Source of the DNA: a virus
Virus record (IMG/VR): IMGVR_UViG_3300037300_000313
Location: 1 to 34,656 of that record
Strand: one strand, 5' to 3'
DNA length: 34,656 nucleotides
Shown here: positions 3,680 to 26,671 of the stretch, piece after piece
Numbering within the stretch: the stretch's first letter is position 1
Layout: each line of letters begins with the position of its first letter
Notes under the pieces: model-generated
The model's input: only the letters and a program-made list of their open reading frames with translations
Databases searched by the model: none
What the model was told of the DNA's origin: nothing
Program-made: the position numbers and the translations under genes

Positions 3680-3715
3680 TAGGTGACGTTAAAGAATAGG
3701 GGTGTGAAGACCTCT
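3680..3715 (+). promoter_or_regulatory. Candidate phage promoter, copy 1, with leader hairpin
   Basis: TAGGTGACGTTAAAGAATA (3680-3698) matches the motif shared with copies at 11275, 11309 and 21273. It is followed directly by GGGG and the hairpin AGGGGT-GTGAAG-ACCTCT (3698-3715). The shape, a linear AT-rich motif of about 19 bases ending AATA followed by G, resembles single-subunit phage polymerase promoters. It precedes the tail-tip operon starting at 3747. Function is inferred from recurrence and position. Confidence 0.6.
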
Positions 3716-3746
3716 CCAACAAACTATAAAAAGAGGAGTAAACACT

Positions 3747-4367
3747 ATGCCTTACAAGTGGGAAGGACTAGACATTCTAGCACCCTTAACTATCAAGTCT
3801 AATCAAACTATTTGGACTGTAGAAAAGTTAGATAAAAGTATTGATCGTATGTCTAGTCCATCACAGCGTTGGGATATGAACTTTAGTGTTAAGGATAATG
3901 AAAATGAAGGAGCAGCTTTTAAAGCTATGACTAGTGGTTTTGCTTCTAAAAGCTTTATGCCCATGCCTAACCTTCTTCGTTCTAAGCACTCTACCTCTAA
4001 CTTTATTGCTCCTACTTGGGATGCTATTCGTTTAGGAGTGGTTTCTGCTTCTGGTGCAACAACAGTTAGCTTAAAAAACGTTACTGGTGTTGGCCTTGCT
4101 TCTGGCGTAAGTGCCTTTATTCAGTTTGTTAATGATACAAAGGTTTATGCCGCTACAACTCAAGCAGTTTTTAATCCGTTTGCTAGTAACGTAGCCTTGA
4201 GTATTTTTCCTCCACTAAGAAAAGCAACACCAATTGACACAGTTGTAAGGTTTTATGATCATGTGACCTATCACTACTACCTTAACACTGATAACCTACA
4301 AGGCATTACCTACACTGATGGTATTCTTTTTGGTATTGAAAACGTTGCCCTTTGGGAGGCCTTGTAA
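3747..4367 (+). CDS. Tail tip or distal tail-like protein
   Basis: This 206-residue protein opens the operon under the first candidate phage promoter, with AAGAGGAG 9 bases ahead of the ATG. Residues 30-65 contain RWDMNFSV and a stretch ending MTSGFASKSFMPMPN. This recalls distal tail proteins, where an Arg-Trp-beta strand is followed by a helix that reads 'which region of the profile to cover'. The following genes are a tail-tip protein and a J-like protein, which supports a place at the tail tip. The stop overlaps the next start (TAATG). The family is not firmly recognised, so the role rests mainly on context. Confidence 0.55.
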   Translation: MPYKWEGLDILAPLTIKSNQTIWTVEKLDKSIDRMSSPSQRWDMNFSVKDNENEGAAFKAMTSGFASKSFMPMPNLLRSKHSTSNFIAPTWDAIRLGVVSASGATTVSLKNVTGVGLASGVSAFIQFVNDTKVYAATTQAVFNPFASNVALSIFPPLRKATPIDTVVRFYDHVTYHYYLNTDNLQGITYTDGILFGIENVALWEAL

Positions 4368-4930
4368 TGAAGACTAATGCTAACGAACTTATCAGTCTCC
4401 TAGACGGAACTGATCTTGGTTTCTTTGCTCTTGTAGAGTTCAACTGGAATCAAAACTACTACTACACTGACCTTGGTCGTGATGTTACTTGGAACGGTAA
4501 CCTTTACCTTGCTAACCCTATGCCAATTGTCAGCATGGAACCCTTAAAGTATTCTAGTATTGTAGACCGTGAAGCCTTTAACCTGCAAATTTCTGCTATC
4601 GATCCTGCTATGAGAGCTGAGTTTGATTTTGGAATTGTTAACAGGTCCGTTAAAATTAGAACCGTCTTTACTTCTTTTGGAGCACCTCAACTGGGGTTGT
4701 CTCAAACACTACTTCTTTATGAAGGGACTGTAAGTAAAATCAGTGAAGTAATTAGTAATGAAACTCGTATTTTTAACATTGAGTGTACAGCTCCCTTGTC
4801 TAACCTAGACGCTACAGGGACTCTCTATACAACTCGTGATGGTATGAAAGTATTTAACGCAAATGACACAAGCTTTGATACTGTCTTTGAGGGTAGTGAA
4901 GCGATCAGTCTAAAGTGGGGTAAGGTATAA
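4367..4930 (+). CDS. Minor tail tip protein, DUF2163/DUF1833-like
   Basis: I place the start at ATG 4367, which overlaps the previous stop (TAATG) and has GGGAGG about 7 bases upstream; a longer reading from TTG 4352 lacks such a site. The protein has about 187 residues. The N-terminal pattern ALVEFNWNQNYYYTDLGRDV then WNGNLYLAN matches the style of tail proteins just before the J-like protein, in which a short beta motif around TD-x-GRDV-x-WNGxxY is typical. In lambda-like tails such proteins build the hub between tube and tip. It overlaps the next gene by TAATG, so translation is coupled. Family name is a pattern-level judgement. Confidence 0.62.
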   Translation: MKTNANELISLLDGTDLGFFALVEFNWNQNYYYTDLGRDVTWNGNLYLANPMPIVSMEPLKYSSIVDREAFNLQISAIDPAMRAEFDFGIVNRSVKIRTVFTSFGAPQLGLSQTLLLYEGTVSKISEVISNETRIFNIECTAPLSNLDATGTLYTTRDGMKVFNANDTSFDTVFEGSEAISLKWGKV

Positions 4931-7900
4931 TGATTTTTCCATTTCTAATTGCTGCTTTTGGCTCACTGTTTTCAGCAGCAGTAACTATCTTTTCTATTGT
5001 TTCTACTATTGCCAGTGCTATTTACCAACGTAAAAGGCAGAAAAAACTAGAATCAGAACTCGATAAACAAAAAGGCTTTAACCTAGTAACTGAACGTGAT
5101 CCTATTCACTTGCCGCTAGTTTATGGTACACAAATGGTTGGTGGTGTTAGGTCCTTCCATAAGACTATGAATGTGTTGACTCAAGCTCCTGCGCTTACTA
5201 GTCAAGGTTGGAAGAGTTTTCGTTACGGCTTAATTGACCCAAACATAGCTTATACTGGTACTGAAATTGACAGGCTCAGGAATGAGTTTCTTAACGGACT
5301 AAGGGGTACCTCAAGACGCAACAGGGATGGTGACGTTGAAATTGGTAATCCTGTTTTTGTCCCACCCACGGCACCAAGTAACGTAAGTAGCGTCAGTAAA
5401 AACCAATGGTACATCACGCAACAAGCTCTTTGCTTTGCTGGTATTGATGACATTATTGATATTGAGGTAAATAGTCAAAGTTGGAATCGTGGTAAGTTTC
5501 AACACATTCTAGAGTGCCACAGAAACGGTGGTATTGCTAACCCTACTGCTACGGCTTCCGGAGTTCCAGCAACCAACCTCTTCACTAACATTGCTTGGAT
5601 TAACGCTGTTTACTTTTTGAACCGTGATGAGCCTAACTACCAAGGTACACCTAGCCTTAATGCTTTTATTAAAGGTCAGAGGCTTTGGAACATTACTAAT
5701 AATAATTCTGTTTTTGCACTAGGTACAAAGTCTTACTCTAATAACAACTCTCTTGTTCTCTTAGATTACTTACTCCGGCCCTCTGAACTTGGTGGTCTTG
5801 GTCTTGGTAATCTTTCAGCGTCAGTTTGGCTTGCTGGTATTGTAAAACCCAACACAGACAAAGTTTGGCTTAAGTTTTTTTGGGAAGCTGCTCAACTTTG
5901 TGATACTGTAGTAGAAACCCTTCCTAAAGTTCGTGGCCGAGTTAACGGTGTACCCGATATTGACAATCGTGTTATTGCTCTTTCTGATCGTGAAGACGGT
6001 AAAGAAATTGGTGAAACAGTTTATGTAGAGGCTACAGATCAAGTTTTTGATTGGGTTCCTGTAAGTGGAACAAATCAGTGGGTGCTTAAAACTGCCTCTC
6101 GAGTTGTTAAGCTTTATGAGTGTAACATTACACTAGATACGCAACGTACTTTTCGAGACAACATTGAGCTTATTCTTGAAACTATGAGTGATGCTGAACT
6201 TGTTTACAGTGAAGGTAAGTACAAGCTTATTCTTAACTACCCAGAAAATAATGCTGCACAAGAACTTCTGCTCGTTGACTCTTATACAGACGCTAACATT
6301 GTAAACGGTGAAGTTTCTATTTCTTATCCGGGAGCTTCTGACAGGCTAAATCGTGTTGTTGTTAAATTTAATAACGAACAACTAGACTTTGGAACTGACT
6401 CAGTAAGTTGGCCGCAGTGGGGTGATGCTAACCATACAAAGCTCCTTGCAGAGGATAATGGTAAGCACTCTAAACAAGAGATTTTTCTACCGGGTTGTTC
6501 CATTTCTACCTTGGCTTTAGCTAAAGCTGAAACTATGGTACGTCAGTCAAGACTTTATGTTGGTGACGAACTTATTACTCCTAACTCGGGTTTTTCTCTA
6601 AACCAAAAGCTTATTACTCTTAAGCTAGATCGTCGTGCTCTCATTCTAGAAACAGGTGACTTGTTTAAGCTTACAAGTCTTGACGCTGAGATTACTAACG
6701 AAGTTTTTAAAGTTGAGACTATTAAGTACACTAAGAAAATGGAAGTAGAGGTTACGGCTTCTCAGTTTAACCACACTAACCTTAAGTACTCAAGTAAAGT
6801 TACTACTATACCACGACCTGTTTTTGTCTTTAACGACGTTAAACCACCTATTACAGCGTTTGGTTACGTTCCAAATAGAAGGTTTGGTCAAGGTGAAGAA
6901 TCTAATGGTTACTTGACTTGGGCTCCGCCTATTAACCAAGCTGTTAAAAACTACTACTTGTACTACTCTGACAGTCTTGGTAATATTTTCCCTCTTGGTG
7001 TAACTACTGAAGAGTACTTTGACTTACCAGCCACCTTTTTGGCTGCACAGTCTTACTTTTTTATTATTAAGTATGAAATAAGCAGTGGTGCTATGTTTCC
7101 GGGTTCAACTGTAATTGTAAACAACTTAATTAGCTTGTTGCCCGCCGCTAACTTAACAGCTTTGTCTGGTATAAACAGTGTTCTTCTTAGGTGGACTAAT
7201 GAAAAACCTCAACTTGTTTTAAGATATGAAATCTTTAGAGGGTTAACTAGTAACAGGTCTCTGGCTACAAGACTAGCCTTGACTACTGATCTTAATTTTA
7301 CAGTTTCACCTCTTAGTACTTCTAACCATTATTTTTGGGTTGATGCTATTAGTAAAGATGGTTCTGTTGCAGTAATGTCAGTACCTCTTCTTGTTCAAGC
7401 TTCTGAACTAGGTATAAAGAGTATTGATATAGCAGAAATAGTTAACCTGACTAGCTTTGCCGCTGGAATTCGCCCGGTAGAGGTTCTAGGTGCTTTGCCG
7501 GGAATACCTCACGTTGCAGGACGACAAGTGTTCTTGACTACCGACAACAAACTATATCGCAACACTGGTACAGGTTGGACGCGGGCGGTGGACGGCGGCG
7601 ACCTCGTCGCGAACAGCATCGTAACTGGCAGTATCGCAGCGGGCGCAGTTAACACTTCACAGCTTGCTGCAAATGCTGTTATTGCTTCAAAGATTGCTGT
7701 AACTAGCATTGAAAACCTTTGGCCTGATGGTAGTTTTGGAAACCAAGATACTGAACTCTTTACAGTTACCGGAACTGGAGCAACTTCAGCTTTTCCTTAT
7801 AATTTAAGCCGAACAGGGGGTAACAGTTTAGGTCTAGTCCGACCTGCTGGGCAGCATAACGTTACAACTTTAAAAACCGAGTATTATGCTCCGGTAAGAG

Positions 7901-9339
7901 GAGGTCACACCTACTGGGCAGAAACAGAAGTTGTTGCGAATGCTAGCGGCGGTATTAGCGCCGGGTTTTATTTTAGGGTAAACTGGTGGGACGTAAATAA
8001 GGTTTTTATTTCACAGGTTGACATAGCTAATGACGTGGCTGTTCCTAACGATTGGGTAAGCTTTTCTAGACAATTAGTAGCCCCCTCAACTGCAAATTTT
8101 GCTAGTTGGCAACTCTTCAACTGGGATACTAACACTACAGCAGTAAGTTTATTTGTTGACCGTGTTGTGCTGCGAAAAGCAAACGCAGCAGAACTGACTG
8201 TGGATGGAACAATTACTGGTAACTTGGTAGCGGCTGCAACTCTTACTGGTAACAACATAGTTGCAGGTTCTATAAACACTCGAACACTTAACATTGATGA
8301 AAAGCTTACTATTAATGAAACGGACGCCGGGTTTGTTATGGGTAAAGCTAGTTCAGCGGACTTTGCTGCTGATGGAATGTTTATGGGAAGAACTCTGGCC
8401 GCTGCTGGTGGTCCGGGTTTTGGCTTCTTGATGGGCAGAACAACTGCCGCAGGCAAAAAAGAGTATATTCAACACACAACAGACACGGGATTAGTTATTG
8501 TAAATGCGCAGTATGCTCTTGCATTGGACGTTTCTCCGGCAACGCAAACTCTTACAACCTCGCAGACTTTCGTGCTTGCTGCTGGCGTAAAGACTATCTC
8601 ATTCACAGCGTTGGGTGGGGGTGCTTCTCCAATTAATGCAGGCGGACTAACTCGGGTTCGACTGTTTTCTGGAGCCACCGATACCGGCGTTTCGTGGTCT
8701 TCAGCAGGTGGTCTTGCAGGAGGTTCTCCAAACGGACGCAACGGGCAAAGTTCTTTGCTTGGGACCGGGGGCGCGGGTGGATCTATATATTGGGTCGGGG
8801 GTTCTAACAATGGATATCAAGTTATAGAACCCCCGACACCGGGGACTGGTTTTGGCGCTGGTGGTGGATCAGATCGGGACTCTCCTGTTTCTGGTGGACG
8901 CGCAGCTACGGCAACTACAGTCAACCTCTACGATGTGAGTGCTGTAGTTAACCCCCGACTGGTGATCACTATTGGCGCGGCAGGAACAGGAGTGGCGGCG
9001 GGTTCTCCGGGCGTTGTTCAAGTGCAGCAAAGCCTTGCCACTTTGGTTCCTGCCGGAGTTATTCCACTTTACCCTACAGCTGTTGGTTCTTTTACTAAGG
9101 CAGCTAACGCTACGGGAACAACAGTGTTTCCTGACCTTGGGGTAGGTATGTGGGTGCTAACGGAAACTGGTGGAAACGAACTACGCATTGGTCGTGTTGT
9201 AATAGACGAGTTTACAAATTGGATAGACGTTATTCAGGCTCGCTCTGTTACCTTTATTGCTAACAGGAGGCCAGAAATAACTGTTGGAGACGGCAATGCC
9301 CGTACAATCCGCTATTTCTTTTACAGAATGAAGGTGTAA
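4930..9339 (+). CDS. Tail tip host-specificity protein, lambda gpJ-like
   Basis: This 1469-residue protein is the likely central tip protein that contacts the host receptor. Residues 1-30 are a hydrophobic helix; LVYGTQMVGGVRSF near residue 62 is the classic J-type hub motif. The hub continues to about residue 620 (FKVETIKYTKKMEVEVTA). Fibronectin III-like segments follow (about 640-830), then a linker with ANSIVTGSIAAGAVN, then a carbohydrate-binding-like module starting LWPDGSF near 930. A glycine-rich module lies at about 1230-1335 (GAGGAGG, GAGGGS), and a C-terminal beta segment ends the protein. Bases 7578-7650 and 8570-9020 are much more GC-rich than the rest, which points to swapped C-terminal modules. 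The gene is overlapped by the previous stop and followed closely by the next gene. Confidence 0.88.
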   Translation: MIFPFLIAAFGSLFSAAVTIFSIVSTIASAIYQRKRQKKLESELDKQKGFNLVTERDPIHLPLVYGTQMVGGVRSFHKTMNVLTQAPALTSQGWKSFRYGLIDPNIAYTGTEIDRLRNEFLNGLRGTSRRNRDGDVEIGNPVFVPPTAPSNVSSVSKNQWYITQQALCFAGIDDIIDIEVNSQSWNRGKFQHILECHRNGGIANPTATASGVPATNLFTNIAWINAVYFLNRDEPNYQGTPSLNAFIKGQRLWNITNNNSVFALGTKSYSNNNSLVLLDYLLRPSELGGLGLGNLSASVWLAGIVKPNTDKVWLKFFWEAAQLCDTVVETLPKVRGRVNGVPDIDNRVIALSDREDGKEIGETVYVEATDQVFDWVPVSGTNQWVLKTASRVVKLYECNITLDTQRTFRDNIELILETMSDAELVYSEGKYKLILNYPENNAAQELLLVDSYTDANIVNGEVSISYPGASDRLNRVVVKFNNEQLDFGTDSVSWPQWGDANHTKLLAEDNGKHSKQEIFLPGCSISTLALAKAETMVRQSRLYVGDELITPNSGFSLNQKLITLKLDRRALILETGDLFKLTSLDAEITNEVFKVETIKYTKKMEVEVTASQFNHTNLKYSSKVTTIPRPVFVFNDVKPPITAFGYVPNRRFGQGEESNGYLTWAPPINQAVKNYYLYYSDSLGNIFPLGVTTEEYFDLPATFLAAQSYFFIIKYEISSGAMFPGSTVIVNNLISLLPAANLTALSGINSVLLRWTNEKPQLVLRYEIFRGLTSNRSLATRLALTTDLNFTVSPLSTSNHYFWVDAISKDGSVAVMSVPLLVQASELGIKSIDIAEIVNLTSFAAGIRPVEVLGALPGIPHVAGRQVFLTTDNKLYRNTGTGWTRAVDGGDLVANSIVTGSIAAGAVNTSQLAANAVIASKIAVTSIENLWPDGSFGNQDTELFTVTGTGATSAFPYNLSRTGGNSLGLVRPAGQHNVTTLKTEYYAPVRGGHTYWAETEVVANASGGISAGFYFRVNWWDVNKVFISQVDIANDVAVPNDWVSFSRQLVAPSTANFASWQLFNWDTNTTAVSLFVDRVVLRKANAAELTVDGTITGNLVAAATLTGNNIVAGSINTRTLNIDEKLTINETDAGFVMGKASSADFAADGMFMGRTLAAAGGPGFGFLMGRTTAAGKKEYIQHTTDTGLVIVNAQYALALDVSPATQTLTTSQTFVLAAGVKTISFTALGGGASPINAGGLTRVRLFSGATDTGVSWSSAGGLAGGSPNGRNGQSSLLGTGGAGGSIYWVGGSNNGYQVIEPPTPGTGFGAGGGSDRDSPVSGGRAATATTVNLYDVSAVVNPRLVITIGAAGTGVAAGSPGVVQVQQSLATLVPAGVIPLYPTAVGSFTKAANATGTTVFPDLGVGMWVLTETGGNELRIGRVVIDEFTNWIDVIQARSVTFIANRRPEITVGDGNARTIRYFFYRMKV

Positions 9340-9341
9340 TT

Positions 9342-9758
9342 ATGTATGTGTTTTATGAACCCTTAACTGGAGCTATTTCTTACACAGCCACGGGTACTGA
9401 CGAACTTGTAGAAGGCCGAGAAAACTGGATCGAGGTTCCTAATCAAGAGCTTGGCGATCTGTCCGCGTGGAGTGTAGTTGAGGACGTCTTGGTACAGGAC
9501 AATGCCGTAGAGTTGCAATCTCAACGAAGGGGTATGTTCTGCACCCGCATGCAGGGCATCCTTGCCCTAGGTCCAGAACGTTGGGCTGCAGTAATGGAGT
9601 ACCACGACACAGCTACTTGGGCCGAACGTGTAGTAATTGATAGTGCTTCTGACTGGCTTCGACTAAGTCAAAACATTGCTTTCTTTTCCTACTTGCTCAA
9701 CCTTACTGATACAGAAGTAGATGAACTTTTTACAATAGCAGCGGGGATTGAAGCATGA
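9342..9758 (+). CDS. Tail tip accessory protein downstream of J
   Basis: This 138-residue protein begins three bases after the J-like gene. Its C-terminal half, from RMQGILALGPERWAAVMEY to TDTEVDELFTIAAGI, follows a helical pattern seen in small phage proteins encoded next to tail tip or fibre genes, where an Arg-rich helix is followed by a 'lTDtevDeLF..Aa.I' tail. The N-terminal 50 residues look like a short beta region. There are no membrane segments. A role in tip assembly or as a fibre adaptor is inferred from position and this pattern. Its stop overlaps the next start (ATGA). Confidence 0.6.
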   Translation: MYVFYEPLTGAISYTATGTDELVEGRENWIEVPNQELGDLSAWSVVEDVLVQDNAVELQSQRRGMFCTRMQGILALGPERWAAVMEYHDTATWAERVVIDSASDWLRLSQNIAFFSYLLNLTDTEVDELFTIAAGIEA

Positions 9759-10072
9759 AAAGACTTCCCCGCTTCTTTTACATTTTCTACAAACTATTTC
9801 AAAGTTTGATGTCTAGTATTTCAAGGTTTAGTAACGCAGCTTTCCTTAATGGTTCTACACATCAAACTATCTCAGCTAGAGCCTTTATTGAAAGCTCATC
9901 AAGCCCTAAGTGGAAAAAGAGACAAAACTTTATTGATGCTATGTTTTTCTTTCAACAAAAACATTGTCAGTGGGCTTGGGAAACCGAAGTAGAAAACGCT
10001 CGAAGAACTCTTCAACAGAACGATGTAAAGATAATAGTATACAACCTAAGTAAAGGATTTAAAGATGAGTAA
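9755..10072 (+). CDS. Small protein at head of lysis cassette
   Basis: This 105-residue protein overlaps the previous gene by ATGA and the endolysin gene by 8 bases. It has an amphipathic or membrane-leaning N-terminus (residues 6-22, FFYIFYKLFQSLMSS). It then shows a pattern of N-A-A-F-L-N-G, TISARAF, a Trp-Lys pair, a helix with DAMFFF, and a His-Cys at QQKHCQWAWE. Small proteins with this order (T-I-S-x-R-A ... HC) occur beside phage lysins in other genomes. I know of no proven function; a role in lysis timing is possible. The call depends mainly on operon position. Confidence 0.55.
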   Translation: MKRLPRFFYIFYKLFQSLMSSISRFSNAAFLNGSTHQTISARAFIESSSSPKWKKRQNFIDAMFFFQQKHCQWAWETEVENARRTLQQNDVKIIVYNLSKGFKDE

Positions 10073-10550: not shown

Positions 10551-10564
10551 ACTAAGGAAAAACA

Positions 10565-10885: not shown

Positions 10886-11277
10886 AAAAGCTTTTTGTAG
10901 CTTTACTTTTAATTGTGACTCTTACTTCTTGTTCAAAAGTAGGTGGTGTTGTAGCTAAGGCTGCTCTTGGTGGTATTGGACTTCCAACAGCAGCCTCGGC
11001 ACAAGTAGGTAAGACTAACACTCAAACTATAGGAACCTCAGAAAATGTTGACTTTGTAGTAAAAGACGTTACAAACAGCACTATCAGACCTGTTATGAGA
11101 CCTACGGGTATTACCACTACGGACAAGGTAGAAACAATAAATCAGATAAATAACAACGTACCTTTCTGGTTTATTGTCGCTTTTATCCTGTGGAGTATCT
11201 TTCTTTGGGAACTTCCTAGGTTCAGTACTATAGTAGAGTACTTCAAAAAAGGTAAACAAAAACAACAATATAATTAG
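10882..11277 (+). CDS. Lipoprotein with C-terminal membrane helix, u-spanin candidate
   Basis: This 131-residue protein has a lipoprotein signal: MKK, a hydrophobic stretch, then LTSC with the modified Cys at residue 17. Near the other end is a single membrane helix at about 94-110 (PFWFIVAFILWSIFLWE), followed by a basic cytoplasmic-type tail. A protein anchored by lipid in the outer membrane and by a C-terminal helix in the inner membrane is the topology of unimolecular spanins, as in phage T1, which fuse the two membranes at lysis. It closes the lysis cassette, just before the twin candidate promoters. The roughly 75-residue linker is Thr/Asn/Val-rich. Assignment rests on topology and position rather than on sequence similarity. 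Confidence 0.68.
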   Translation: MKKLFVALLLIVTLTSCSKVGGVVAKAALGGIGLPTAASAQVGKTNTQTIGTSENVDFVVKDVTNSTIRPVMRPTGITTTDKVETINQINNNVPFWFIVAFILWSIFLWELPRFSTIVEYFKKGKQKQQYN

Positions 11278-11312
11278 GGTGCGTTAAAGAATAGAGCCTA
11301 CCACAAAGTAGG
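11275..11312 (+). promoter_or_regulatory. Candidate phage promoter, copy 2a, with hairpin
   Basis: TAGGGTGCGTTAAAGAATA (11275-11293) matches the repeated motif with two or three differences. It is followed by GAG and the hairpin CCTAC-CACAAA-GTAGG (11297-11312). The 3' arm of the hairpin overlaps the first bases of copy 2b. It starts at the stop codon of the spanin-like gene and lies upstream of the portal gene. Confidence 0.57.
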
Positions 11313-11342
11313 TAACGTTAAAGAATAAAGAGGTCTTTCCTC
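11309..11342 (+). promoter_or_regulatory. Candidate phage promoter, copy 2b, with hairpin
   Basis: TAGGTAACGTTAAAGAATA (11309-11327) is the best match to the consensus. A short hairpin GAGG-TCTTT-CCTC (11330-11342) follows three bases later. The copy lies 34 bases after copy 2a and 50 bases before the portal start, so head genes would have a tandem promoter, fitting their need for high expression. Confidence 0.62.
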
Positions 11343-11376
11343 ATCAAAGTTAACTCATTAGTAGGAGGATGACCTA

Positions 11377-12987: not shown

Positions 12988-12990
12988 TTA

Positions 12991-13010
12991 GGACCAAACT
13001 GGTCCCTTTT
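12991..13010 (+). terminator. Tight hairpin with short T tail between portal and tRNA
   Basis: GGACCA (12991-12996) pairs perfectly with TGGTCC (13000-13005) around a three-base loop AAC, followed by CTTTT. It could be a weak terminator or an RNA processing element releasing the tRNA. A 6-bp stem with a 3-base loop and purine centre also has the geometry of N4 virion-polymerase promoters, but that is speculative. Confidence 0.5.
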
Positions 13011-13086
13011 CCCCTTTAGCTCAGTTTGGTAGAGCACTTGCCTTGTAAGCATGAGGTCGTTGGTTCGAGGCCAACAGGGGGAACCA
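13010..13086 (+). tRNA. tRNA-Thr (anticodon UGU)
   Basis: A full cloverleaf can be drawn. The acceptor stem is TCCCCTT (13010-13016) with AGGGGGA (13076-13082), including one T-G pair. The D arm is GCTC-AGTTTGGTA-GAGC; the anticodon arm is CTTGC-CTTGTAA-GCATG with anticodon TGT. The T arm is GTTGG-TTCGAGG-CCAAC, and discriminator A plus encoded CCA end at 13086. The anticodon stem has one T-T mismatch (second pair). It would read ACA and possibly other Thr codons, which are common in these phage genes. It lies inside the head operon, between portal and the MuF-polymerase gene. Confidence 0.93.
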
Positions 13087-13117
13087 ATAACTTACCAGTC
13101 AGGAGGCTGCTAGTTCT

Positions 13118-16100
13118 ATGGAAATAAATCAAGAACTCTTTGATAGTACAATTGATCACGCTGTGGACGTTAAGCTTTTTGAAGAGAGTGTTCAGGTAGG
13201 TAATAACCGTATTATTAGGCGTCATAAAGAAAAACTTTTGGCTATAGTTAAGGCAGACCTTGCTGGTCCATTGGTAGATAAGAAAAAATCTTTTAACAGT
13301 TTAAAAGCTGAACAGTCTAGGTTTGCCACAGAACTATTTTCTTGGCAAAAGACAAACATGACAGAACTTTCTACGGCTGAACTAGACTTCTCAAGCAACC
13401 TTCTTAACAAGAGTGCTAGAGGGTTTTATGAAGTAGAAAGGCCGAAGGTAAGAGAAATTCTTTCTCCGATTACTGGCTCTGTGATGAAAGGAGAAAAAAC
13501 CTTAAAAGGCAACATTAGTAACATCACTGCTGGTGAGCTTGTTAGAGTACAGACAAAAATTAAGTCTGGTCAGGCAAGAAAACTCACCCCTAATGAAATA
13601 CTTAAAGAAGTAGACGCCACTACAAGGATTACCTCTTCACAAACTTCCACTATTACTCGTACAGCAATTACTAGTACTCAAAGAGATTCTTTGGTAAGTA
13701 CCCTAGAGGCTAACGCTTCTCTTGTAAAAGGTTTCATGTTTTCTGCTATTCTAGACACACGTACCTCAAGTATTTGTAGCTTTCATAACGGTAAAGTCTA
13801 TAGTGTTGATAACAAAAGCTTTATGCCACCACTACACTTTAACTGTCGTTCTACTATGGTTCCTGTACTTAGGAGTAAGGAAGAACTACAAGGTAACGTT
13901 GAAGACTTGAGAATTAAGCAAGAAGGTCTTTCCAAAGTTTCTGATGGTTTCCTTTCAGGGGTTACTGCCGCTAAAGAAAATCTCAGTGAGTGGTTAAAAA
14001 GGCAAAGCTTTCCTACACAAGTGAAAATGCTAGGTGATGAGTTTCGAGTAAAGCTGTTCAGAGAAGGTAAACTTCTAGCTGAAGAGTTTATTACGCCTAA
14101 GGGTCTGGCGCTTAGTATAACTGCACTAAGAAAAAGAGCAGCTAGCGCAGTTTCAATTTATAAACCAAGACAGGAACTTAGGGAAGAAACTACAAAACTT
14201 TCTGTTTTTAAACCTAGTGAGCTGGTAAATAAGCCAGAAAACAGGGTAAAAGTTCGAGAATTGTTCTTGCTAGACTCTGATGATTACAACAAAACTTACG
14301 CCCTGACTGATTTTAAAGGAACTTCTCTACAAGGTAAACAAACTGCTCGCCGAAGAGTTGGCAATGAGTTTGACCCTAGTAATAACAGCTTTGACCCTCT
14401 TACTGGTGAAGCTAAGAATAACAACCTTTATGATCCTAACTACACACTGTTTCAAGAACGCCTTGATTTTATGCGAAACTCTAAAACACTAAAAGCTGAA
14501 CACAAGTCTTTTATTGAAGACGTTGTTAACGGTATTGAAGATAAAGTTTCTATAAACCAACAGACAGTTGCTATTGAAAACCTGAGAGTAGTTATTGAAC
14601 GTGCTCTAAGTGATGGTCAACCTTGGGATAACCTAGCCTCTGTGCTTCGTGCTGAAAACAGGTTTTCTGTACAAAACGTTTCTCGGCTTCTTGACGTAAG
14701 ACAGCGCAATGACAATGAGCTTTTTGCAAAGTTTACTGGAAAAGCAGAAGACAGCCTTCAAGTTCAAATTATGGGCAAGTACTACGACTTAGACTCACTG
14801 CAGGCTAACAGACTTAAGGACCAGCGTTTTATTGATGACTTTCGTAGAACCACTGGAAAAGAACTGGCAACAGAACTTTACTTGAAAGGTAAGCTTCCGG
14901 CTCGTGCCTACTTTAGCAACCTAGCAGGACAGTACCCTACTACAAAAAAAGTTAAAAAGTGGCTTATAGCTAACACTACAGTTGGAAGAGCTTACACAGC
15001 CTACAAGAAGTTTGGTGAGCCTAAAGATGACTGGTGGGTAACTCAAGTACAAACCCTTAACGAAAACTACCGTTACATTGTTGACCTAGAGTTTCTGAGA
15101 GTAAGTAAAAAACCGTCTTCCGATTTCCTCGATGACAGTGCAATCAACTCTCTCAGCAAGGCAGTAAAACTTGTAGCCTCAGGTCAGATGACAGACTATG
15201 ACGGTTTGGCCATTGCTATAGGTAAGCAGTTTGCTAAAGACTTTGAAAACATTCTGCCTTTTACAAAACACACTATGAAAGACTATCACAAGGAAGGTTC
15301 TAAAATCCTTGAGTTTATGTTGTCAAGTAAGATGATTAGAACAAACTTTCGTGGTAAAGTAAGACGAGGTGTTTATGACGTAGACACAGGTAGGTCTTCT
15401 TCTAGTTGGGGTGACACTATCTCAAGAGAAGTAGAAGTGCTAGACAAGAGAATGATAGCTTTGCAAGAAGCTGAACGTAGGACAGTTATTGCTAGACGTC
15501 TAGGTATTGTTGAGGAACGTGACAGACTCATTGTAAAAGCCAACAAGAAAACCTACTTTGATGCTAGAGGTAACGACACAGGTATACCTATTATCTCAAG
15601 AAACAAAGCTGCTAGTTATGATGCTACTCAAATTGACTCTGACATAGCTAACATGATGAATCATGCTATGGACGTTGAGTATGAGGTTGACCCAGAGTTC
15701 TTTAGCTTTATGGATGACCTAGTGCGCTTTCGTGACCCTCGTGGTAACTCTAAGTACTATGATGGTATCAATGAGTTTAGACATGAAGTTCTTGCTCGTG
15801 GTGACCAAGGCTACGGTCTTATGACTACAGCTAAGTGGCATGCTCAGAGAGGGAAACCCTTTAAAACAGAAGTCTACCTTGACTCTCGTGGTCGTGTTTA
15901 TCACCGTGGCTACCTAACACCTACTGGTGGGGAAATGGTAAGGCCCTTTCTAAATGATGCTAGGGCTGTCTCTATGACACCGCAAGCCTTGAGAGAAATA
16001 CGTATTCAGACTGGCGCTATGATTGGAGAGAGTACAGAAGCCCTTACCCAAACTGGTAGGTTGGAAATCTTTGCTAGAAATGAAAAGTCAATCTTAGAGC

Positions 16101-17524
16101 TAGGTCAGCTTCTTATGAGCAAAACCCAAAGAGACAGACGCCTTCGTGAGTTCCTTGAACACCCTCTTATTCAAAAACTTGAGGGGCCTGAGGTTCCAAA
16201 GTTGGCTAGGCTTTCCCTAGAATATGCTCGTGTACATAAGCACAATAACGGTGACTTTTTAAACAGTAAGTTATTGTCTACCTACAAAACCAAGCTTATG
16301 GTTGAAAACGACGCCTCTGCCTCTGGTGCCCAAATCATCGGGCTTAGCACTCGTGACAGAATGATCTCAGAGGCTTCCAACGTTGTTGCTACAACTAAAA
16401 AGAACAGGCTCTATGACCTTGTAGCTATGGATACTATTGATGATCCTGAATTTTTGAAAATACCCGCTCTACGTGATGCTAACCTTACTTGGGGAGACCT
16501 TGCTAAGGCTGCTAAGTCTCAGAACTTGGTTAGCTTCTATGGTGCTGGTGCTAACACTAAGACAGCTAACGTTGCTAGGGAGTTTGCTAAGGTACTTGAA
16601 AAGAAAGGTATTATGGCAATCACAAAAGAAAGCTTAGCTGAACAGCTTAGGATTATTGATACAAAGATAAAGCTTTCAAATAAGATTGGTGCCACAGTAG
16701 TAGAAGCTGAACTTAAAAACTTCAGAGAAGAACTGTTGGACCTTGTTAATAAAGATCAAAGTGTTGCTATTAAGTTAATGAAAGAGGCTGAAGAGATTTC
16801 GGAAGAAACCGCCGCCTTTGTAGCAAAGCTAATGAACAACCGGGGAGGACTAGTTGGACCAGAAGACTTCAAAAAGATTTCTGAGATCATGTCTAAAAAC
16901 CTTTCTGCTCGTGCCCCTGTTACAGACAACTTTATTCAGTTCTGGAAACTCGCCGCCAAGTCCTATGTAAAAGATACCAACAGTGTAGATATCCCGTGGA
17001 TAACTTTCGATGGTAAGCTCATGACACAAAAGTATAGGCCGCAGCTACAAGAAAGAATAGAGTTTAAAGACCCTGTTACAGGTCGTAAGGTTATGAATAT
17101 CTATCAAATGGAAGCCCAAGATGGGAAGCTACTTGGTAAGGGTTCTATTGCTGATGCCACTATTGGCCTTGGTGTGAACGGTAACCACTCTAACGACGCT
17201 AGTATTGTGAGGCAGTTCCACTTGTGGGGTCGTAAAAACAATCTTAGCACTGCAACAATTCACGACGCTTTCTTTACAAACGTTGCGGTAGCTGATAAAG
17301 CTATTTCCGCACTTAAAGTAATTTACGCAGACTCTCTTGATAGTAACACTATTAAGGACACACTAAAAGCTATGAGAAAAAAGGGTATGTCACAGAAAAC
17401 TTATGAAATTCTTCTTAGTGAAGCTAGAAAAGCTGGACTGATTGACGTGAGAAACCCCTTGACTAGAGAAGATATCTTGAAGCCTATACCTGAGGGGATG
17501 GACTACTATGGTATTGGACCATAA
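13118..17524 (+). CDS. MuF minor head protein fused to T7-type single-subunit RNA polymerase
   Basis: This 1468-residue protein sits where a MuF minor head protein is expected, between portal and scaffold. Residues about 180-250 hold the MuF signature: AILDTRTSSIC (D213, C220), HNGKVY, and PPLHFNCRS (H240, C243). The C-terminal half, from roughly residue 500, is a single-subunit RNA polymerase. It shows D922-S-R-G-R926 (T7 DxxGR), motif A ENDASASGAQ with D1065, motif B with K1133 and Y1141 at the same 8-residue spacing as T7 K631-Y639, and motif C TIHDAF with H1382 and D1383 (T7 H811-D812). The Arg four residues before the motif B Lys in T7 is Ala here, with Lys at 1130. Residues about 250-500 are unassigned. 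By position it should be in the virion and enter the cell with DNA to transcribe first genes, as in N4. Packaging and activity are inferred. Confidence 0.92.
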   Translation: MEINQELFDSTIDHAVDVKLFEESVQVGNNRIIRRHKEKLLAIVKADLAGPLVDKKKSFNSLKAEQSRFATELFSWQKTNMTELSTAELDFSSNLLNKSARGFYEVERPKVREILSPITGSVMKGEKTLKGNISNITAGELVRVQTKIKSGQARKLTPNEILKEVDATTRITSSQTSTITRTAITSTQRDSLVSTLEANASLVKGFMFSAILDTRTSSICSFHNGKVYSVDNKSFMPPLHFNCRSTMVPVLRSKEELQGNVEDLRIKQEGLSKVSDGFLSGVTAAKENLSEWLKRQSFPTQVKMLGDEFRVKLFREGKLLAEEFITPKGLALSITALRKRAASAVSIYKPRQELREETTKLSVFKPSELVNKPENRVKVRELFLLDSDDYNKTYALTDFKGTSLQGKQTARRRVGNEFDPSNNSFDPLTGEAKNNNLYDPNYTLFQERLDFMRNSKTLKAEHKSFIEDVVNGIEDKVSINQQTVAIENLRVVIERALSDGQPWDNLASVLRAENRFSVQNVSRLLDVRQRNDNELFAKFTGKAEDSLQVQIMGKYYDLDSLQANRLKDQRFIDDFRRTTGKELATELYLKGKLPARAYFSNLAGQYPTTKKVKKWLIANTTVGRAYTAYKKFGEPKDDWWVTQVQTLNENYRYIVDLEFLRVSKKPSSDFLDDSAINSLSKAVKLVASGQMTDYDGLAIAIGKQFAKDFENILPFTKHTMKDYHKEGSKILEFMLSSKMIRTNFRGKVRRGVYDVDTGRSSSSWGDTISREVEVLDKRMIALQEAERRTVIARRLGIVEERDRLIVKANKKTYFDARGNDTGIPIISRNKAASYDATQIDSDIANMMNHAMDVEYEVDPEFFSFMDDLVRFRDPRGNSKYYDGINEFRHEVLARGDQGYGLMTTAKWHAQRGKPFKTEVYLDSRGRVYHRGYLTPTGGEMVRPFLNDARAVSMTPQALREIRIQTGAMIGESTEALTQTGRLEIFARNEKSILELGQLLMSKTQRDRRLREFLEHPLIQKLEGPEVPKLARLSLEYARVHKHNNGDFLNSKLLSTYKTKLMVENDASASGAQIIGLSTRDRMISEASNVVATTKKNRLYDLVAMDTIDDPEFLKIPALRDANLTWGDLAKAAKSQNLVSFYGAGANTKTANVAREFAKVLEKKGIMAITKESLAEQLRIIDTKIKLSNKIGATVVEAELKNFREELLDLVNKDQSVAIKLMKEAEEISEETAAFVAKLMNNRGGLVGPEDFKKISEIMSKNLSARAPVTDNFIQFWKLAAKSYVKDTNSVDIPWITFDGKLMTQKYRPQLQERIEFKDPVTGRKVMNIYQMEAQDGKLLGKGSIADATIGLGVNGNHSNDASIVRQFHLWGRKNNLSTATIHDAFFTNVAVADKAISALKVIYADSLDSNTIKDTLKAMRKKGMSQKTYEILLSEARKAGLIDVRNPLTREDILKPIPEGMDYYGIGP

Positions 17525-17555
17525 CGTATTCTAGGTAATGTCTGTGACAGAACCT

Positions 17556-17580
17556 TAACCTTAAAGTAAGTAGTACTTAC
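17556..17580 (+). promoter_or_regulatory. Degenerate candidate phage promoter before scaffold/capsid
   Basis: TAACCTTAAAG (17556-17566) matches the core TAACGTTAAAG of the repeated motif with one change. The perfect inverted repeat GTAAGT-AGT-ACTTAC (17566-17580) follows, as in the other copies where a hairpin abuts the motif. AAGGAG and the scaffold start come next. A weaker match than the other four, but the same arrangement; a TAGGTAATG stretch at 17533 is a second partial echo. Confidence 0.38.
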
Positions 17581-17592
17581 AAGGAGAACTAA

Positions 17593-18345
17593 ATGCCTAA
17601 GACTATTGAAGAAATGGAAAAAGAGTTGGAAAAGCTTCGTGCGCTCGTAGCAATCAAAGAAAAAGAAAACACTGATCCTGAAGACGAAGACGAGGATGAA
17701 GAGCTTGAGAAAAAGAAGGCCGAAGAAGCCGCTCTAGAAGCTAAACAAAAGGCAGAAGAGGAAGAGGAAGAAAAACTCAGCCCTGACGTTCGTAAGCTTA
17801 AAGCTTCGCTTAACGCTCTTGATAAAAAATATAAAGACGCACTCAAAGAGCAAAAGATCCTTGAAGCCAAGGTTAAAGACTCCGACAAAAAGTCTCGTGA
17901 TGCAGAAATTGCGGCTCTTAAGAAAGAGGGTAAAGAATCTGAAGCCTTGACAAAACAAGCAGAAGACCTTTCTGCAGAGATTGCTGTACTTCGTGAAGAA
18001 AACGTAACTTTGCGTCGGGATCAAGTTTTGGACTCAGCTATTGCTGGCGTAGAGTTTAAGAGTGAACGTAGCCGTAAACTAGCTCGAAAAGACATTCTCG
18101 ATCAACTGTCGAAAAATGAAGATGGTTCTTGGTCAAGTAAAGATGGTAAGTCTATTGAAGACTTTGCTGCAAATTACTTTGAGGAAGAAGAAAACAGACA
18201 CTTGTTTCTTAAAGCTAAAATGAACTCCGGTTCAGGTACAGAAACTAAAGTAGCTAATACCAGCACTAATGGTGGTGGAACTGAGTCTATTTTTGACGTA
18301 CCTCAAGCACAACTTATGAAAAGTATCAAGCGAAAGCTTGGATAA
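17593..18345 (+). CDS. Capsid scaffolding protein
   Basis: This 250-residue protein is strongly charged and helical. Residues 1-65 contain an acidic block DPEDEDEDEELEKKK. Residues 65-145 form long coiled-coil-like heptads (LKASLNALDKKYKDALKEQ, then LSAEIAVLREENVTLRRDQ). The end carries a basic tail KSIKRKLG, typical for the capsid-binding helix-turn of scaffolds. It lies directly before the major capsid gene with AAGGAG upstream. It should line the inside of the procapsid shell and leave or be degraded before packaging. No protease domain is visible in it or in neighbouring genes. Confidence 0.85.
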   Translation: MPKTIEEMEKELEKLRALVAIKEKENTDPEDEDEDEELEKKKAEEAALEAKQKAEEEEEEKLSPDVRKLKASLNALDKKYKDALKEQKILEAKVKDSDKKSRDAEIAALKKEGKESEALTKQAEDLSAEIAVLREENVTLRRDQVLDSAIAGVEFKSERSRKLARKDILDQLSKNEDGSWSSKDGKSIEDFAANYFEEEENRHLFLKAKMNSGSGTETKVANTSTNGGGTESIFDVPQAQLMKSIKRKLG

Positions 18346-18361
18346 TAAAGGAATATAACAC

Positions 18362-19465
18362 ATGCCTATTGACACAGCTAACTTTCAAGTTTATCAAGAA
18401 ATGGTTCGCCAGTACCAGCACGAAGCCTACACTACTTCGCGTAAACTGACCGGAACGGGGGTTGTTGGTAACCGCTCGGACGTAGACGGTAGCGTGGAAT
18501 CTTACATTGGACAGTTCCGCTGGTACAAGCCGCTGAACCCGGTTATTAACATTGCTTCGGCTACTAACGCGGCTGATGGTCTTCTGACCGAAGTTTCGAC
18601 CGACATTGCTAAGTACGTCAAGACTGTTCGTACTAACGGTGGTGAGGCTGTGAACGTGGCTGAAGTTATCACTAAGGAAGACGGACTCAAGAAGCTTGGC
18701 CGAGACCTTGCTCAGACCCGCTCGGACGACGAAGGTACTGCCCTCATGTCTGTGCTTCAAGGCGTGGCCGCTGCTGAAGCCTTTCGAGGCAGTGTCAGTG
18801 GTGTTGTTAACTATGACACTAATGCCGATGCGGTTAACACAGGTTTCTTTGTGGACGTTAACGCTGCTGGTACCTTTGGTGCTACTGCTACTGGCGCTGG
18901 TGACCAACGTCGTCTTTTTGACTCTACTGGTATTGGCGCTGCTCGTGGTGAACGACTGTTTAAAGCTATTGGTATGGCCTTCAAGGACAACGAGCCTGAC
19001 TACATGTACATGGTTACTTCTCCTGAAACCATTGCTGAACTCCGAGCTGCTAACCTCGTTGAAGACACAAAGGTCACAGATGGTCAGCTAGAGTTCTCTA
19101 CACTGTTTGAGGGTAAGTTCCGACTTCTTCCTACTCGTCAAAACCAAATGGCTTCGGGCCTGACTGCTGGTCGTGTAAACGCCCGTTCGACTAAGTGTAC
19201 CTTCCTCTTGAAGCCCGCTGCTGTGTCGTTCTCGCCCGTTGTGCCGCCTATGCCTGTCGAAATTGACCGTAAAGCTGCTTCCTTTGGTGGTTCGGGTTCT
19301 AACCAAGTTTGGTACCGTTGGGGCTACGTTATGCACCCTGAGGGTTATTCGTGGTCCGGTGCTGAGAACGCTTTTGCTTCTAACGCAAACCTCAGTGCCG
19401 CTGCCTCGTGGACTCGTAAGGTTGACTCGCTCAACTTGCCTATCCTTTCTATTTTCCACTCGTAA
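18362..19465 (+). CDS. Major capsid protein
   Basis: This 367-residue protein follows the scaffold gene by 16 bases and precedes the neck genes, the standard place of the shell protein. The sequence is rich in Ala, Gly, Thr and Val. It has an N-terminal arm-like helix (FQVYQEMVRQYQHEAYTT), a helix-rich central part (GLKKLGRDLAQTRSDDEG), and a beta-rich C-terminus. An HK97-type fold is expected for this order of genes but no signature proves it. Codon use differs from most of the window: TCG, CTC, GCC and CGC are frequent, as if tuned to a GC-richer host for high expression. It has no clear maturation cleavage site. Confidence 0.85.
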   Translation: MPIDTANFQVYQEMVRQYQHEAYTTSRKLTGTGVVGNRSDVDGSVESYIGQFRWYKPLNPVINIASATNAADGLLTEVSTDIAKYVKTVRTNGGEAVNVAEVITKEDGLKKLGRDLAQTRSDDEGTALMSVLQGVAAAEAFRGSVSGVVNYDTNADAVNTGFFVDVNAAGTFGATATGAGDQRRLFDSTGIGAARGERLFKAIGMAFKDNEPDYMYMVTSPETIAELRAANLVEDTKVTDGQLEFSTLFEGKFRLLPTRQNQMASGLTAGRVNARSTKCTFLLKPAAVSFSPVVPPMPVEIDRKAASFGGSGSNQVWYRWGYVMHPEGYSWSGAENAFASNANLSAAASWTRKVDSLNLPILSIFHS

Positions 19466-19483
19466 TAAAAGGAGTAGTGCAAC

Positions 19484-19981
19484 ATGGCACTAGTTGTAGG
19501 TATCAATACCTACGTAACAGCAGTGGAAGCAGGGTTATACTTTGCTTCTACACCTGATGTAGCAGTCTGGACTAGCTTGAGCCTAGAGCTTAAAGAAGCC
19601 TTTTTGATTACAGCAACCCGTTACGTAGACAACAGACCTTGGATTGGTAGTGTTGTTAGCCCTACTCAAACTCTCAGTTGGCCTCGGACTAACGCTAACT
19701 ACTATGACGACAGGTTGGGAATCGTTGTTTACACTTCCACAACAACAATTCCTGAAAAAGTTAAAGAAGCAGTGCTAGAACAAACCCTTTACAACATTAA
19801 GAACAAAGACGTGCTTGAAGCTACAGGCCAAACCTTTGAGTCTATCAGTATTGGTACTATCTCGCTTTCTGACTCTAACTCAAGAAAAACAATCAATGCT
19901 ACTGCGCCTAAAACAAGGAAGCTCCTTAAAGGGCTTGAACGTGCCGGAACAGACAGTAAACTTTGGTGGAGGGCTTGGTAA
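19484..19981 (+). CDS. Head-tail connector, DnaT-like annotated family
   Basis: This 165-residue protein begins NTYVTAVEAGLYFAS and continues with KEAFLITATRYVDN, WIGSVVSPTQTLSWPR and IPEKVKEAVLEQTLYNIK. This series (a helix pair, a Q-x-L-x-WPR turn, then a proline and a long helix) is that of connector proteins often labelled 'DnaT-like'. Despite that label they bind below the portal as adaptor rings. It is the first gene after the capsid gene, the usual adaptor position. AAGGAG lies upstream of the ATG. The next gene begins immediately after the stop. No sign of an actual replication role. Confidence 0.75.
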   Translation: MALVVGINTYVTAVEAGLYFASTPDVAVWTSLSLELKEAFLITATRYVDNRPWIGSVVSPTQTLSWPRTNANYYDDRLGIVVYTSTTTIPEKVKEAVLEQTLYNIKNKDVLEATGQTFESISIGTISLSDSNSRKTINATAPKTRKLLKGLERAGTDSKLWWRAW

Positions 19982-20323
19982 ATGAGCCTTCAAAACACAA
20001 TTTCAAAAGCGGTTGATACGGCCTTTCTAAGTGTAGGTAACTTGAAAACCAAAGCGGTAGTAACTCAAAGAAACGTTTCTGGTTGGGACGTTGCTCTAGG
20101 GCAACCTATTGAAAACCCTCAAACCACTACTGTAGAGGTTATAGTACTGAGTAAAACCACTTCTGACAAGGGTGTAGTCACTGCAGACTTGCTTTTCAAA
20201 GCATCACAGTTGACAGTAGACTTGAGTTCAGTCTTCACTATTGGTGGAGAAGTTTTTCGAATTATTCCTCCTGTTGAAAACAATGGTTTTGTTGTTCAAC
20301 TCAAAGCAAAAAAGGAGCAGTAA
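19982..20323 (+). CDS. Neck protein, candidate head closure
   Basis: This 113-residue protein starts immediately at the base after the previous stop. It appears mostly beta-structured, with alternating hydrophobic strands such as TVEVIVLSKT and EVFRIIPPVENNGFVVQLKA, the form expected of small OB-like or beta-barrel head closure proteins. It lies between the connector and a protein that looks like the tail terminator, which supports a neck role. No membrane segment or catalytic motif is present. The family is not recognised with certainty. Its 3' end contains the AAGGAG ribosome site for the TTG-started gene that follows. Confidence 0.58.
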   Translation: MSLQNTISKAVDTAFLSVGNLKTKAVVTQRNVSGWDVALGQPIENPQTTTVEVIVLSKTTSDKGVVTADLLFKASQLTVDLSSVFTIGGEVFRIIPPVENNGFVVQLKAKKEQ

Positions 20324-20713
20324 TTGGATAGGTTTCTTGCTATAACTGCAGACGTTAGAACCGCACTTACTACCTCAACCCTAGAAGTTTACCCAGAAGA
20401 CTATACAGGGAATGTTACAAACGAAAAGCACTTTGCCAGATATTCCTTATTGCTGCCTAGCTCTTCTTCTTATAACTTTAGTGGAGACCCTTTTACAAGT
20501 GGCATGCTTATGGTTAGACTATTTTCAGAAAAAGGTTATGCTGGTAAGGTGTGCTATGAAGATGCTGTAAAGCTTAACCTGGCTTTGGAAAACAAAGTCT
20601 TTACCAACAACACAAAGTTTGGTAAAGCTATGCTCTCCGGAGTTAATCCTGACACAGAAAATGAAGCCCTTGTGATGATGGTGTACAGCATACCACTTAC
20701 TCACTACAAATAA
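20324..20713 (+). CDS. Tail terminator-like protein (TTG start)
   Basis: This 129-residue protein starts with TTG directly after the previous TAA (20321-20323), with AAAAAGGAG just upstream; no ATG is available without losing the conserved-looking N-terminus. Its pattern LAITADVRTALTTS at the start, a Phe/Tyr-rich strand set, and a helix-strand end VMMVYSIPLTHYK fits tail terminators, which cap the tail tube and join it to the neck. Position just before the tail tube gene is the usual one. The assignment is from order and general shape rather than clear sequence family. Confidence 0.6.
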   Translation: MDRFLAITADVRTALTTSTLEVYPEDYTGNVTNEKHFARYSLLLPSSSSYNFSGDPFTSGMLMVRLFSEKGYAGKVCYEDAVKLNLALENKVFTNNTKFGKAMLSGVNPDTENEALVMMVYSIPLTHYK

Positions 20714-20726
20714 GGAGACAGTCTTA

Positions 20727-21272
20727 ATGACTCACATTACTTCCCTAGACACAAGTATGTTTAGTTACCTCGATATTTTCGCTGGTCCACTTACTGCTTT
20801 TCCCGCAAACCCACTTACGGCTGACTTCGCTGCACTTTTCGTAGGTGCCACTGCTACTGTAGGTACCAACGTTCTTCGACTCCCTTCTATTCGAGAGTTC
20901 CCAGCTATAGGCAGCCCTGCAAACATTGCCAACGTTCCTGTTTTTGGACAACTCCAAAGTTCTCAGGTTTCGGGTCAAGTTGATGCACCTGCTATGGACT
21001 TTACTGTCAACTACATTGCAACCAGCATGCTTCCGTTTGAGGCTATTAAACGTCGGCGCGTTGTGTTCCGCTACATGATGGCTGACAGACCTATTACTCC
21101 TGCTCAGAGTGTGCTTGTTCCTTTACCTGCTGAGAACACGATTTACTACTATGTTGGACGAATTGAGTCTATTCAAGTTACACCTTCACTTACTGACGCT
21201 ACTACAGCAATCGTGAGTACTTCTAGTCAAGGTGACTTCAATGGACCTTCGACACTAGCAACGATTCCGTAA
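20727..21272 (+). CDS. Major tail tube protein
   Basis: This 181-residue protein is beta-rich and Thr/Ala/Pro-rich, with AAGGAG before the ATG. It lies between the tail terminator and the tail chaperone genes, where siphoviruses encode the tube protein that stacks in hexamers around the tape measure. Strands such as SGQVDAPAMDFTVNYIA, RRRVVFRYMMADR and IYYYVGRIESIQVT followed by SLTDATTAIVSTS recall tube proteins, in which a fold with a 'spike plus beta sandwich' repeats. Its stop is followed by another copy of the candidate phage promoter. Confidence 0.75.
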   Translation: MTHITSLDTSMFSYLDIFAGPLTAFPANPLTADFAALFVGATATVGTNVLRLPSIREFPAIGSPANIANVPVFGQLQSSQVSGQVDAPAMDFTVNYIATSMLPFEAIKRRRVVFRYMMADRPITPAQSVLVPLPAENTIYYYVGRIESIQVTPSLTDATTAIVSTSSQGDFNGPSTLATIP

Positions 21273-21311
21273 TAGGTAACGTTAAAGAGAGAGGGGAGAA
21301 ATCCCCTTTCT
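21273..21311 (+). promoter_or_regulatory. Candidate phage promoter, copy 3, with GAAA-loop hairpin
   Basis: TAGGTAACGTTAAAGAGA (21273-21290) matches the consensus until the last three bases. A 10-bp stem, AGAGAGGGGA with TCCCCTTTCT (one wobble), closes the GNRA tetraloop GAAA at 21298-21301. It is the strongest of the hairpins linked to this motif and could cap the 5' end of the tail transcript. It sits between the tail tube gene and the 80-residue gene at 21329. Confidence 0.6.
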
Positions 21312-21328
21312 TACTTTGAGAGGTAACT

Positions 21329-26597: not shown

Positions 26598-26603
26598 ACC
26601 TTA

Positions 26604-26631: not shown

Positions 26632-26671
26632 ATCAAAAACGACCACAAAAAAGTGAGAAAACTAAGGCATC

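Follow-up and report, generated by a model that had tools for sequence, protein, structure and literature searches.

The DNA analysed here (the window) is the complete 34,656-base IMG/VR record IMGVR_UViG_3300037300_000313, a fragment from a relative of the roseophages DSS3_VP1 and DSS3_PM1 (VP1 and PM1 below), which are filed under Naomviridae. It encodes two RNA polymerases of the single-subunit type: MuF-RNAP, which is joined to a MuF head protein (13118-17524), and a T7-like enzyme (33704 to the end). A short motif, termed the late motif, occurs four times on the plus strand, with predicted starts 42-88 nt upstream of start codons: at 3680-3694 (predicted start G at 3694), at 11275-11289 and 11309-11323, paired in tandem ahead of the portal gene (predicted starts 11289 and 11323), and at 21273-21287 directly after a stop codon (predicted start 21287). 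The sequence, distribution and covariation described below indicate that the late motif is very probably a late promoter of marine tailed phages, used by the T7-like RNA polymerase that the phage itself encodes (gp080 in VP1).

An earlier reading of the window from sequence alone had proposed a repeated 19-base motif as a phage-specific promoter, and its four copies hold up under statistical control. Allowing at most three mismatches, the 19-mer is found on the plus strand at 3680 (one mismatch), 11275 (three), 11309 (none) and 21273 (three), compared with a mean of 0.03 over 100 dinucleotide shuffles, none of which reached four. The position-matrix search which that reading had suggested, run with a matrix trained on 26 sites from relatives and none from the window, ranks the same four sites first (19.8-26.8 bits), with a clear gap to the next score (7.9 bits). 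A supposed weaker copy at 17556 was discarded, as it reaches only -10.3 bits and ranks 212th in the window. When the non-coding DNA of the window was searched without guidance, the late motif was the third of three words shown, behind two words resembling ribosome sites.

The relatives compared include VP1, PM1, a third lineage (G2), a further one (G3, the record of locus L021), and additional contigs and loci (G and L numbers). The exact core TAGGNNNCGTTAAAG occurs four times in the window, 12 times in VP1, 13 times in PM1 and seven times in G2, with no copy on the reverse strand and a shuffle mean of at most 0.01. All 62 copies in 37 records or loci carrying VP1 homologues are oriented with the genes; since many of these loci overlap or are near-identical, and most were fetched through the motif, orientation rather than copy number is the test. 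Contigs G012 and G014 have one reverse copy each. Of 117 stretches with TAGGTDACGTTAAAGA, 80 were examined; 31 carry VP1 homologues (including L130), and the 49 that do not were set aside as probable chance matches. The tandem pair of the window recurs in L005, PM1 and VP1 (where the first member is one base off), with a spacing of 34-35 nt across these genomes. An unguided finder of repeated 15-mers in non-coding DNA, which as a control placed the promoters of SP6 and T7 at the top in the respective genomes, was used to show three words per contig. The late motif headed these words in VP1, G2 and G3 and was third in G026. Among contigs grouped by the polymerase residue discussed below, it came first in four of the six K contigs G008-G012 and G031, with one second and one third place in the other two, and first in four of five E contigs, being absent from the words shown for G016. 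The G3 lineage, whose MuF-RNAP is at 49% identity, has four copies of a variant, TAGTTGACCTTWAAGA (L033/L034, record of L021), at 3280, 13806, 23892 and 24006. Kolga and EBPR siphovirus 1 each contain one match to the late core with two mismatches, and no promoter-like word was seen among the 20 largest repeat families shown for Kolga.

Promoter register and the T7-like polymerase

Like T7-class promoters, the late motif forms a conserved stretch of roughly 15-23 bp that ends at a predicted start G and lies on the sense strand before genes. In T7-style numbering it would read T-14 A-13 G-12 G-11 K-10 N-9 R-8 C-7 G-6 T-5 T-4 A-3 A-2 A-1, followed by G+1 A+2. In this register it agrees with the SP6 promoter at 12 of 15 positions, a level equalled by 21 of 20,000 letter shuffles compared with the SP6, T7, T3 and K11 promoters. 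In a profile of 30 sites, the fixed columns are invariant because the sites were selected with the pattern TAGG...CGTTAAAG; the start G is followed, at the first free base, by A in 28 sites and by C in two, positions +3 to +7 are G-rich, and conservation is gone beyond +7. Freeing the fixed positions singly in the window, VP1, PM1 and G2 adds few sites (at -13 one each in VP1 and PM1, at -5 two and one, at +1 one in VP1, at -12 and -11 one each in G2), none of them on the reverse strand, and freeing -6 adds none in these four. From the SP6/T7 register and the loss of conservation after +2, we infer that transcription most likely begins at the motif's internal G (TTAAA, then GA). The sequence-only reading had placed it at a G following AATA in most copies, which is true of two of the four (3680 and 11275; 11309 continues with A, and 21273 has GAGAG). 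That placement was rejected in favour of +1 at 3694, 11289, 11323 and 21287. In VP1, late transcripts would be expected to begin at the G of TTAAAG at 2257, 2348, 6595, 7423, 19252, 19341 and 29411.

The likely reader of this promoter is the T7-like polymerase encoded in the same phage, the gene for which is present in VP1 (gp080) and in G2, and as its 5' part in the window (33704-34656, plus strand), which ends before the specificity loop. VP1 gp080 matches T7 RNA polymerase chains at 1.8e-58 to 4.9e-58, and 668 residues of its model (mean pLDDT 89.8) can be aligned with 1CEZ, the complex of T7 RNA polymerase and its promoter (Z 34.6, rmsd 4.0). T7-like polymerases were detected by profile search in 488 stretches, the best 80 of which were examined (mostly 45-57% identical). 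The DNA downstream of the polymerase was searched for the core [AG]C[ACG][CT]T[AT]AAG, leaving -12 to -9 unconstrained, in the 76 loci that were long enough (four were too short). Where the residue at the T7-748 position is E, the core lies within 420 nt in 36 of 37 loci, all 36 with CC at -12/-11 (14 distinct loops); where it is K, the core is found at this distance in 14 of 25 loci, all 14 with G at -11 (seven distinct loops). Loci with another residue yielded a core in one of 14 cases (residue L, bases CT). Residue 748 is K in VP1 (K614 of gp080) and R in both G2 and SP6, and all three have a GG promoter. In T7, N748 contacts positions -10 and -11 (PMC5937735). G3 was left out of this comparison because its polymerase is not on the contig.

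Location also ties the motif to the T7-like polymerase gene. The core was found downstream in the sense direction in 49 of 74 windows, compared with 3/74 for downstream antisense, 10/65 for upstream sense and 2/65 for upstream antisense. The first copy follows the matched end of the polymerase by 10-30 nt in all seven K contigs, by 174-204 nt in all five E contigs, and by 1293, 1281 and 691 nt in VP1, PM1 and G2, respectively. Among contigs with an upstream copy, none has it closer than 12 kb to the polymerase, except G017 (2.1 kb). For the more distant contigs G020, G022, G023 and G024, the words shown include a different one, with a copy about 195 nt after the polymerase (about 456 nt in G023), and the residue rule is not plain in them. 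Copy number, strand bias, SP6-like sequence, adjacency to the polymerase gene and covariation with the specificity loop together strongly back the proposal, made from the window's sequence, of a phage-specific promoter for a single-subunit polymerase. The specificity loop would read -12 to -7 in duplex DNA, TTAAA would melt, and the RNA would begin at the internal G.

Two other readers can be weighed against the same data. That the late motif is instead the promoter of the head-fused MuF-RNAP is improbable: both polymerases do occur wherever both regions are available, and they diverge together, but the bases at -12/-11 track a residue of the T7-like enzyme whose T7 equivalent touches -10/-11, and the separate early element described below suits a virion enzyme better. 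Transcription by the host RNA polymerase is still harder to credit and was dismissed for the late sites, since sigma-70-like matches, although present in the window, are not enriched in its late half (24 versus 26.1 expected from shuffles), the late block lacks a -35/-10 pair, and its sequence shifts in step with the phage enzyme.

Several observations weigh against assigning the late motif to the T7-like polymerase. L174-L176 have a copy some 250 nt upstream of the polymerase gene, G017 has the one at 2.1 kb already mentioned, and no core was found within 420 nt in 11 of 25 K748 loci and one of 37 E748 loci. The tree is compatible with a single E/K change, which may therefore represent few independent events, though the chemistry is clear. 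In distant clades, other words are used by loci with K or R at 748, and the rule is not plainly followed. The window's own specificity loop, in which K or R would be expected at the 748 position, lies beyond its end. Copies within coding regions, named by the sequence-only reading as evidence against a promoter, do occur in part: in VP1, only 5.9% of which is intergenic, four of the 12 exact copies lie wholly inside annotated genes, one overlaps a gene end, and seven are wholly intergenic. T7 likewise has a promoter within a gene (phi4c).

Terminator-like hairpins with T runs directly precede the gene for the T7-like polymerase in both the window (33661-33678) and VP1 (42389-42406), and a near copy lies in the window at 32081 (32084-32105), raising the possibility of attenuation of the polymerase.

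Predicted 5' hairpins of late transcripts

The late RNA would fold into a 5' hairpin of free sequence in which the pairing is kept. The sequence-only reading had described a short hairpin after each copy, and folding predicts one at all four window sites: 6 bp at 3698-3715, 6 bp at 11296-11313 (its 3' arm being the start of the next promoter), a weak one of 4 bp at 11330-11342, and 11 bp from +1 at 21287-21312, all on the plus strand. Those after 11275 and 21273 clearly beat shuffles (z of -2.9 and -3.0), but those after 3680 and 11309 do not (-0.46 and -0.43), so that two of the four are no better than shuffles of their own letters and significance is reached only across the family; the former point counts against the overall reading. 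For the family, the span +1 to +45 was folded at 34 sites (35 non-redundant sites minus the weak homologue L130). The mean z is -1.01, versus -0.07 in 100 random windows (p 4e-5); z is below -1 at 15 of 34 sites, compared with 17 of 100 random windows, and the first paired base lies by +10 in 32 of 34. This enrichment upholds the view that the arms vary as pairing is kept. At a site 3.75-3.79 kb past MuF-RNAP, for example, stems of 11, 12 and 11 bp are predicted in the window (21273), VP1 (29397) and the L016/L083 contig (9085), and they differ in sequence; in many loci of the E clade, a GAACA/TGTTC stem begins at the start G.

Because a hairpin lies downstream of many copies, the late motif could be read as an operator for a protein, or as an RNA processing or regulatory element with the hairpin as its active part. 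This is very improbable, given that the conserved part is the motif upstream and not the hairpin sequence, that the motif fits the T7/SP6 register, and that it is located after a polymerase gene. For the hairpins of a promoter read by the T7-like polymerase, the most likely role would be protection of the 5' end of the late mRNA, which is plausible. A doubtful but serious alternative is that they aid escape from the promoter, or arise incidentally from G-rich starts, and protect nothing: positions +3 to +7 are indeed G-rich, and several of the strong hairpins are matched in strength by shuffled versions of themselves. The mean z is nevertheless shifted across the family, and the AT-rich early transcripts also have a predicted 5' hairpin.

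Early element and MuF-fused polymerase

The T7-like polymerase gene lies in a zone free of the late motif, so another polymerase must make this enzyme first. The protein encoded at 13118-17524 (plus strand) joins a MuF head protein to an RNA polymerase domain of the single-subunit type, as indicated by Pfam, PHROG and profile matches, and is a candidate virion polymerase; in VP1 and PM1 it is annotated only as a minor head protein or head morphogenesis protein. Its catalytic motifs (DxxGR, motif A, K..YG and HDA) are conserved in 11 rows. The polymerase domain was shown in all 11 relatives' contigs that show a portal or capsid gene, and it is more alike than the head part in all 10 contigs where both match. 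Kolga has a T7-like RNA polymerase and a MuF head part without the polymerase domain, and EBPR siphovirus 1 has a split MuF-RNAP. For the C-terminal domain, prediction from three sequences gave no usable fold (mean pLDDT 39.6). MuF bears fused effector domains in other phages, and the passages concerned mention no polymerase fusion (PMC5512222).

The gene neighbourhood showed some further features. Transfer RNA (tRNA) genes of varying kind and number sit between the portal gene and MuF-RNAP (e.g., Thr at 13010-13086 in the window, Asn at 21063-21138 in VP1, and five Rfam tRNA hits at 9038-9827 in L017). In the G2 lineage, both polymerase genes contain a group I intron (Rfam RF00028; L017 13392-13621, and L031 13455-13639 on the minus strand), and an HNH-type reading frame seemingly lies inside the intron of the T7-like gene.

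A second element, GTGAGAAAA-N5-GCATCTATAATGA, was found in the zone of the T7-like polymerase gene, where it heads the early region. The window has one copy (26653-26679, plus strand) with two changes at its 3' end, just after a predicted terminator-like hairpin (26603-26626, plus strand). The element occurs twice each in VP1 (35795, 36242), PM1 and G2 (151, 2517). Of 23 contigs from relatives, 16 have it upstream of the polymerase and none has it reversed; among the seven contigs without it, G026, G029 and G031 begin at or near the polymerase. It was not found in G024, and it is altered (CCCCTCTATAATG) in G025, which has the most diverged polymerase domain. A looser form of the pattern gave 86 IMG/VR stretches and no match in 84,980 prokaryote genomes scanned. 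Of these 86 stretches, 80 were examined; 74 have homologues of VP1 or window proteins, and all 110 copies in these are in gene orientation. In VP1 the early starts are predicted near TATAATGA, at about 35814-35821 and 36261-36268. Hairpins predicted from the TGA of the early element have arms of at least 5 at 45 of 67 unique sites, versus 13% in shuffles, with a mean z of -1.57 compared with 0.13 ten bases further on. Upstream of the element, a stem of at least 4 is present in only five of 27 GAGAAAA-type blocks, and an upstream hairpin was therefore not made a rule; it is present in some variant blocks (e.g., L221, L236, L173 and L178). In a separate observation, GGCAAGGAGCC is repeated just before three early-gene start codons of the window (26719, 27170 and 28241), with the ribosome site between short GGC/GCC arms; it was not found in VP1, PM1, G2 or G3.

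These sequence patterns make the early element a candidate early promoter of the MuF-fused virion polymerase. It could also be a host promoter whose conserved upstream part is unusual. It includes TATAAT, but nothing resembling TTGACA was seen at 16-18 nt, and sigma-70-like matches in the early half of the window are only slightly above the shuffle level (25 versus 19.0, sd 4.3). A tentative scheme for the whole system is that MuF-RNAP enters with the DNA, reads the early AAAAAGTGAGAAAA-N5-GCATCTATAATGA without an upstream hairpin, and makes the T7-like polymerase for the SP6-like late promoters, with both transcript classes starting with a 5' hairpin of free sequence. In members with deoxyuridine (dU), G:C at -6 would additionally avoid the template T at which dU most impairs T7 RNA polymerase. 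The cultured members VP1 and PM1 have dU in place of dT (excerpts of PMC12697855), and dU status is established for these two only, not for the window phage. A single template dU at -6 lowered the kcat of T7 about 4-fold and raised its Km about 4-fold (excerpts of PMC6486633). The first core has G at -6 in 30 of 36 E loci (C in six) and 13 of 14 K loci (A in one), T being excluded by the search pattern, and adaptation to dU at this position is a lead only. Because the scheme includes this lead, and dU is known only for VP1 and PM1, it is judged slightly more likely to fail than to hold as a whole.

A readable transcription map, with both polymerases and their likely starts, is thus available for an almost uncultured group of marine phages. 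The T7-like enzymes and late promoters provide natural pairs with joint changes of one residue and two bases, VP1 and PM1 permit a direct test of such an enzyme on promoters without thymine methyl groups, and the early element is a specific template for asking whether the head-fused polymerase is active.

Comparison with known systems

No paper describing these promoters was recognised in a literature search based on titles and the beginnings of abstracts. The SP6 promoter shares TAGGTGAC with the late motif in addition to the agreement in the T7 register; R at residue 748 of its polymerase goes with GG at -12/-11, and at least one SP6 transcript has a hairpin-like 5' leader. The late core differs from SP6 in having GT rather than AC at -6/-5 and A at -2, the two polymerases share just 25-29% identity, and the window phage also has a MuF-fused polymerase and is itself not a phage of the Autographiviridae type. 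T7 and T3 are similar in polymerase fold (as in the match to 1CEZ), in the start G after a melted A/T stretch, and in the position of the first promoter soon after the polymerase gene, but only eight of 15 promoter positions agree. The E/K change at 748 parallels the switch from N748 in T7 to D in T3. The SP6/T7/T3/K11 promoter group has a consensus core of A-6 C-5 (T7 and SP6 were checked), which is absent from the late motif with its G-6 T-5.

N4, with its virion-type single-subunit polymerase and early genes, is comparable with the second element only. Its early promoters require an upstream hairpin and template-strand recognition (passages from PMC4496689), whereas the hairpin of the late motif lies downstream, TAGGTGACGTTAAAG has no inverted repeat, and upstream hairpins are not a regular feature of the usual early element. 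In Thermus phage P23-45, a virion RNA polymerase fused to the tape measure protein likewise makes a second, non-virion polymerase, but its enzymes are homologues of the cellular polymerases (PMC10770324), whereas here they are single-subunit enzymes and the carrier is MuF. Taken alone, the late motif would be a new member of the T7/SP6 type of promoters with a core of its own (G-6 T-5), and the MuF-fused polymerase with its own candidate early element is, as far as was found, a new arrangement.

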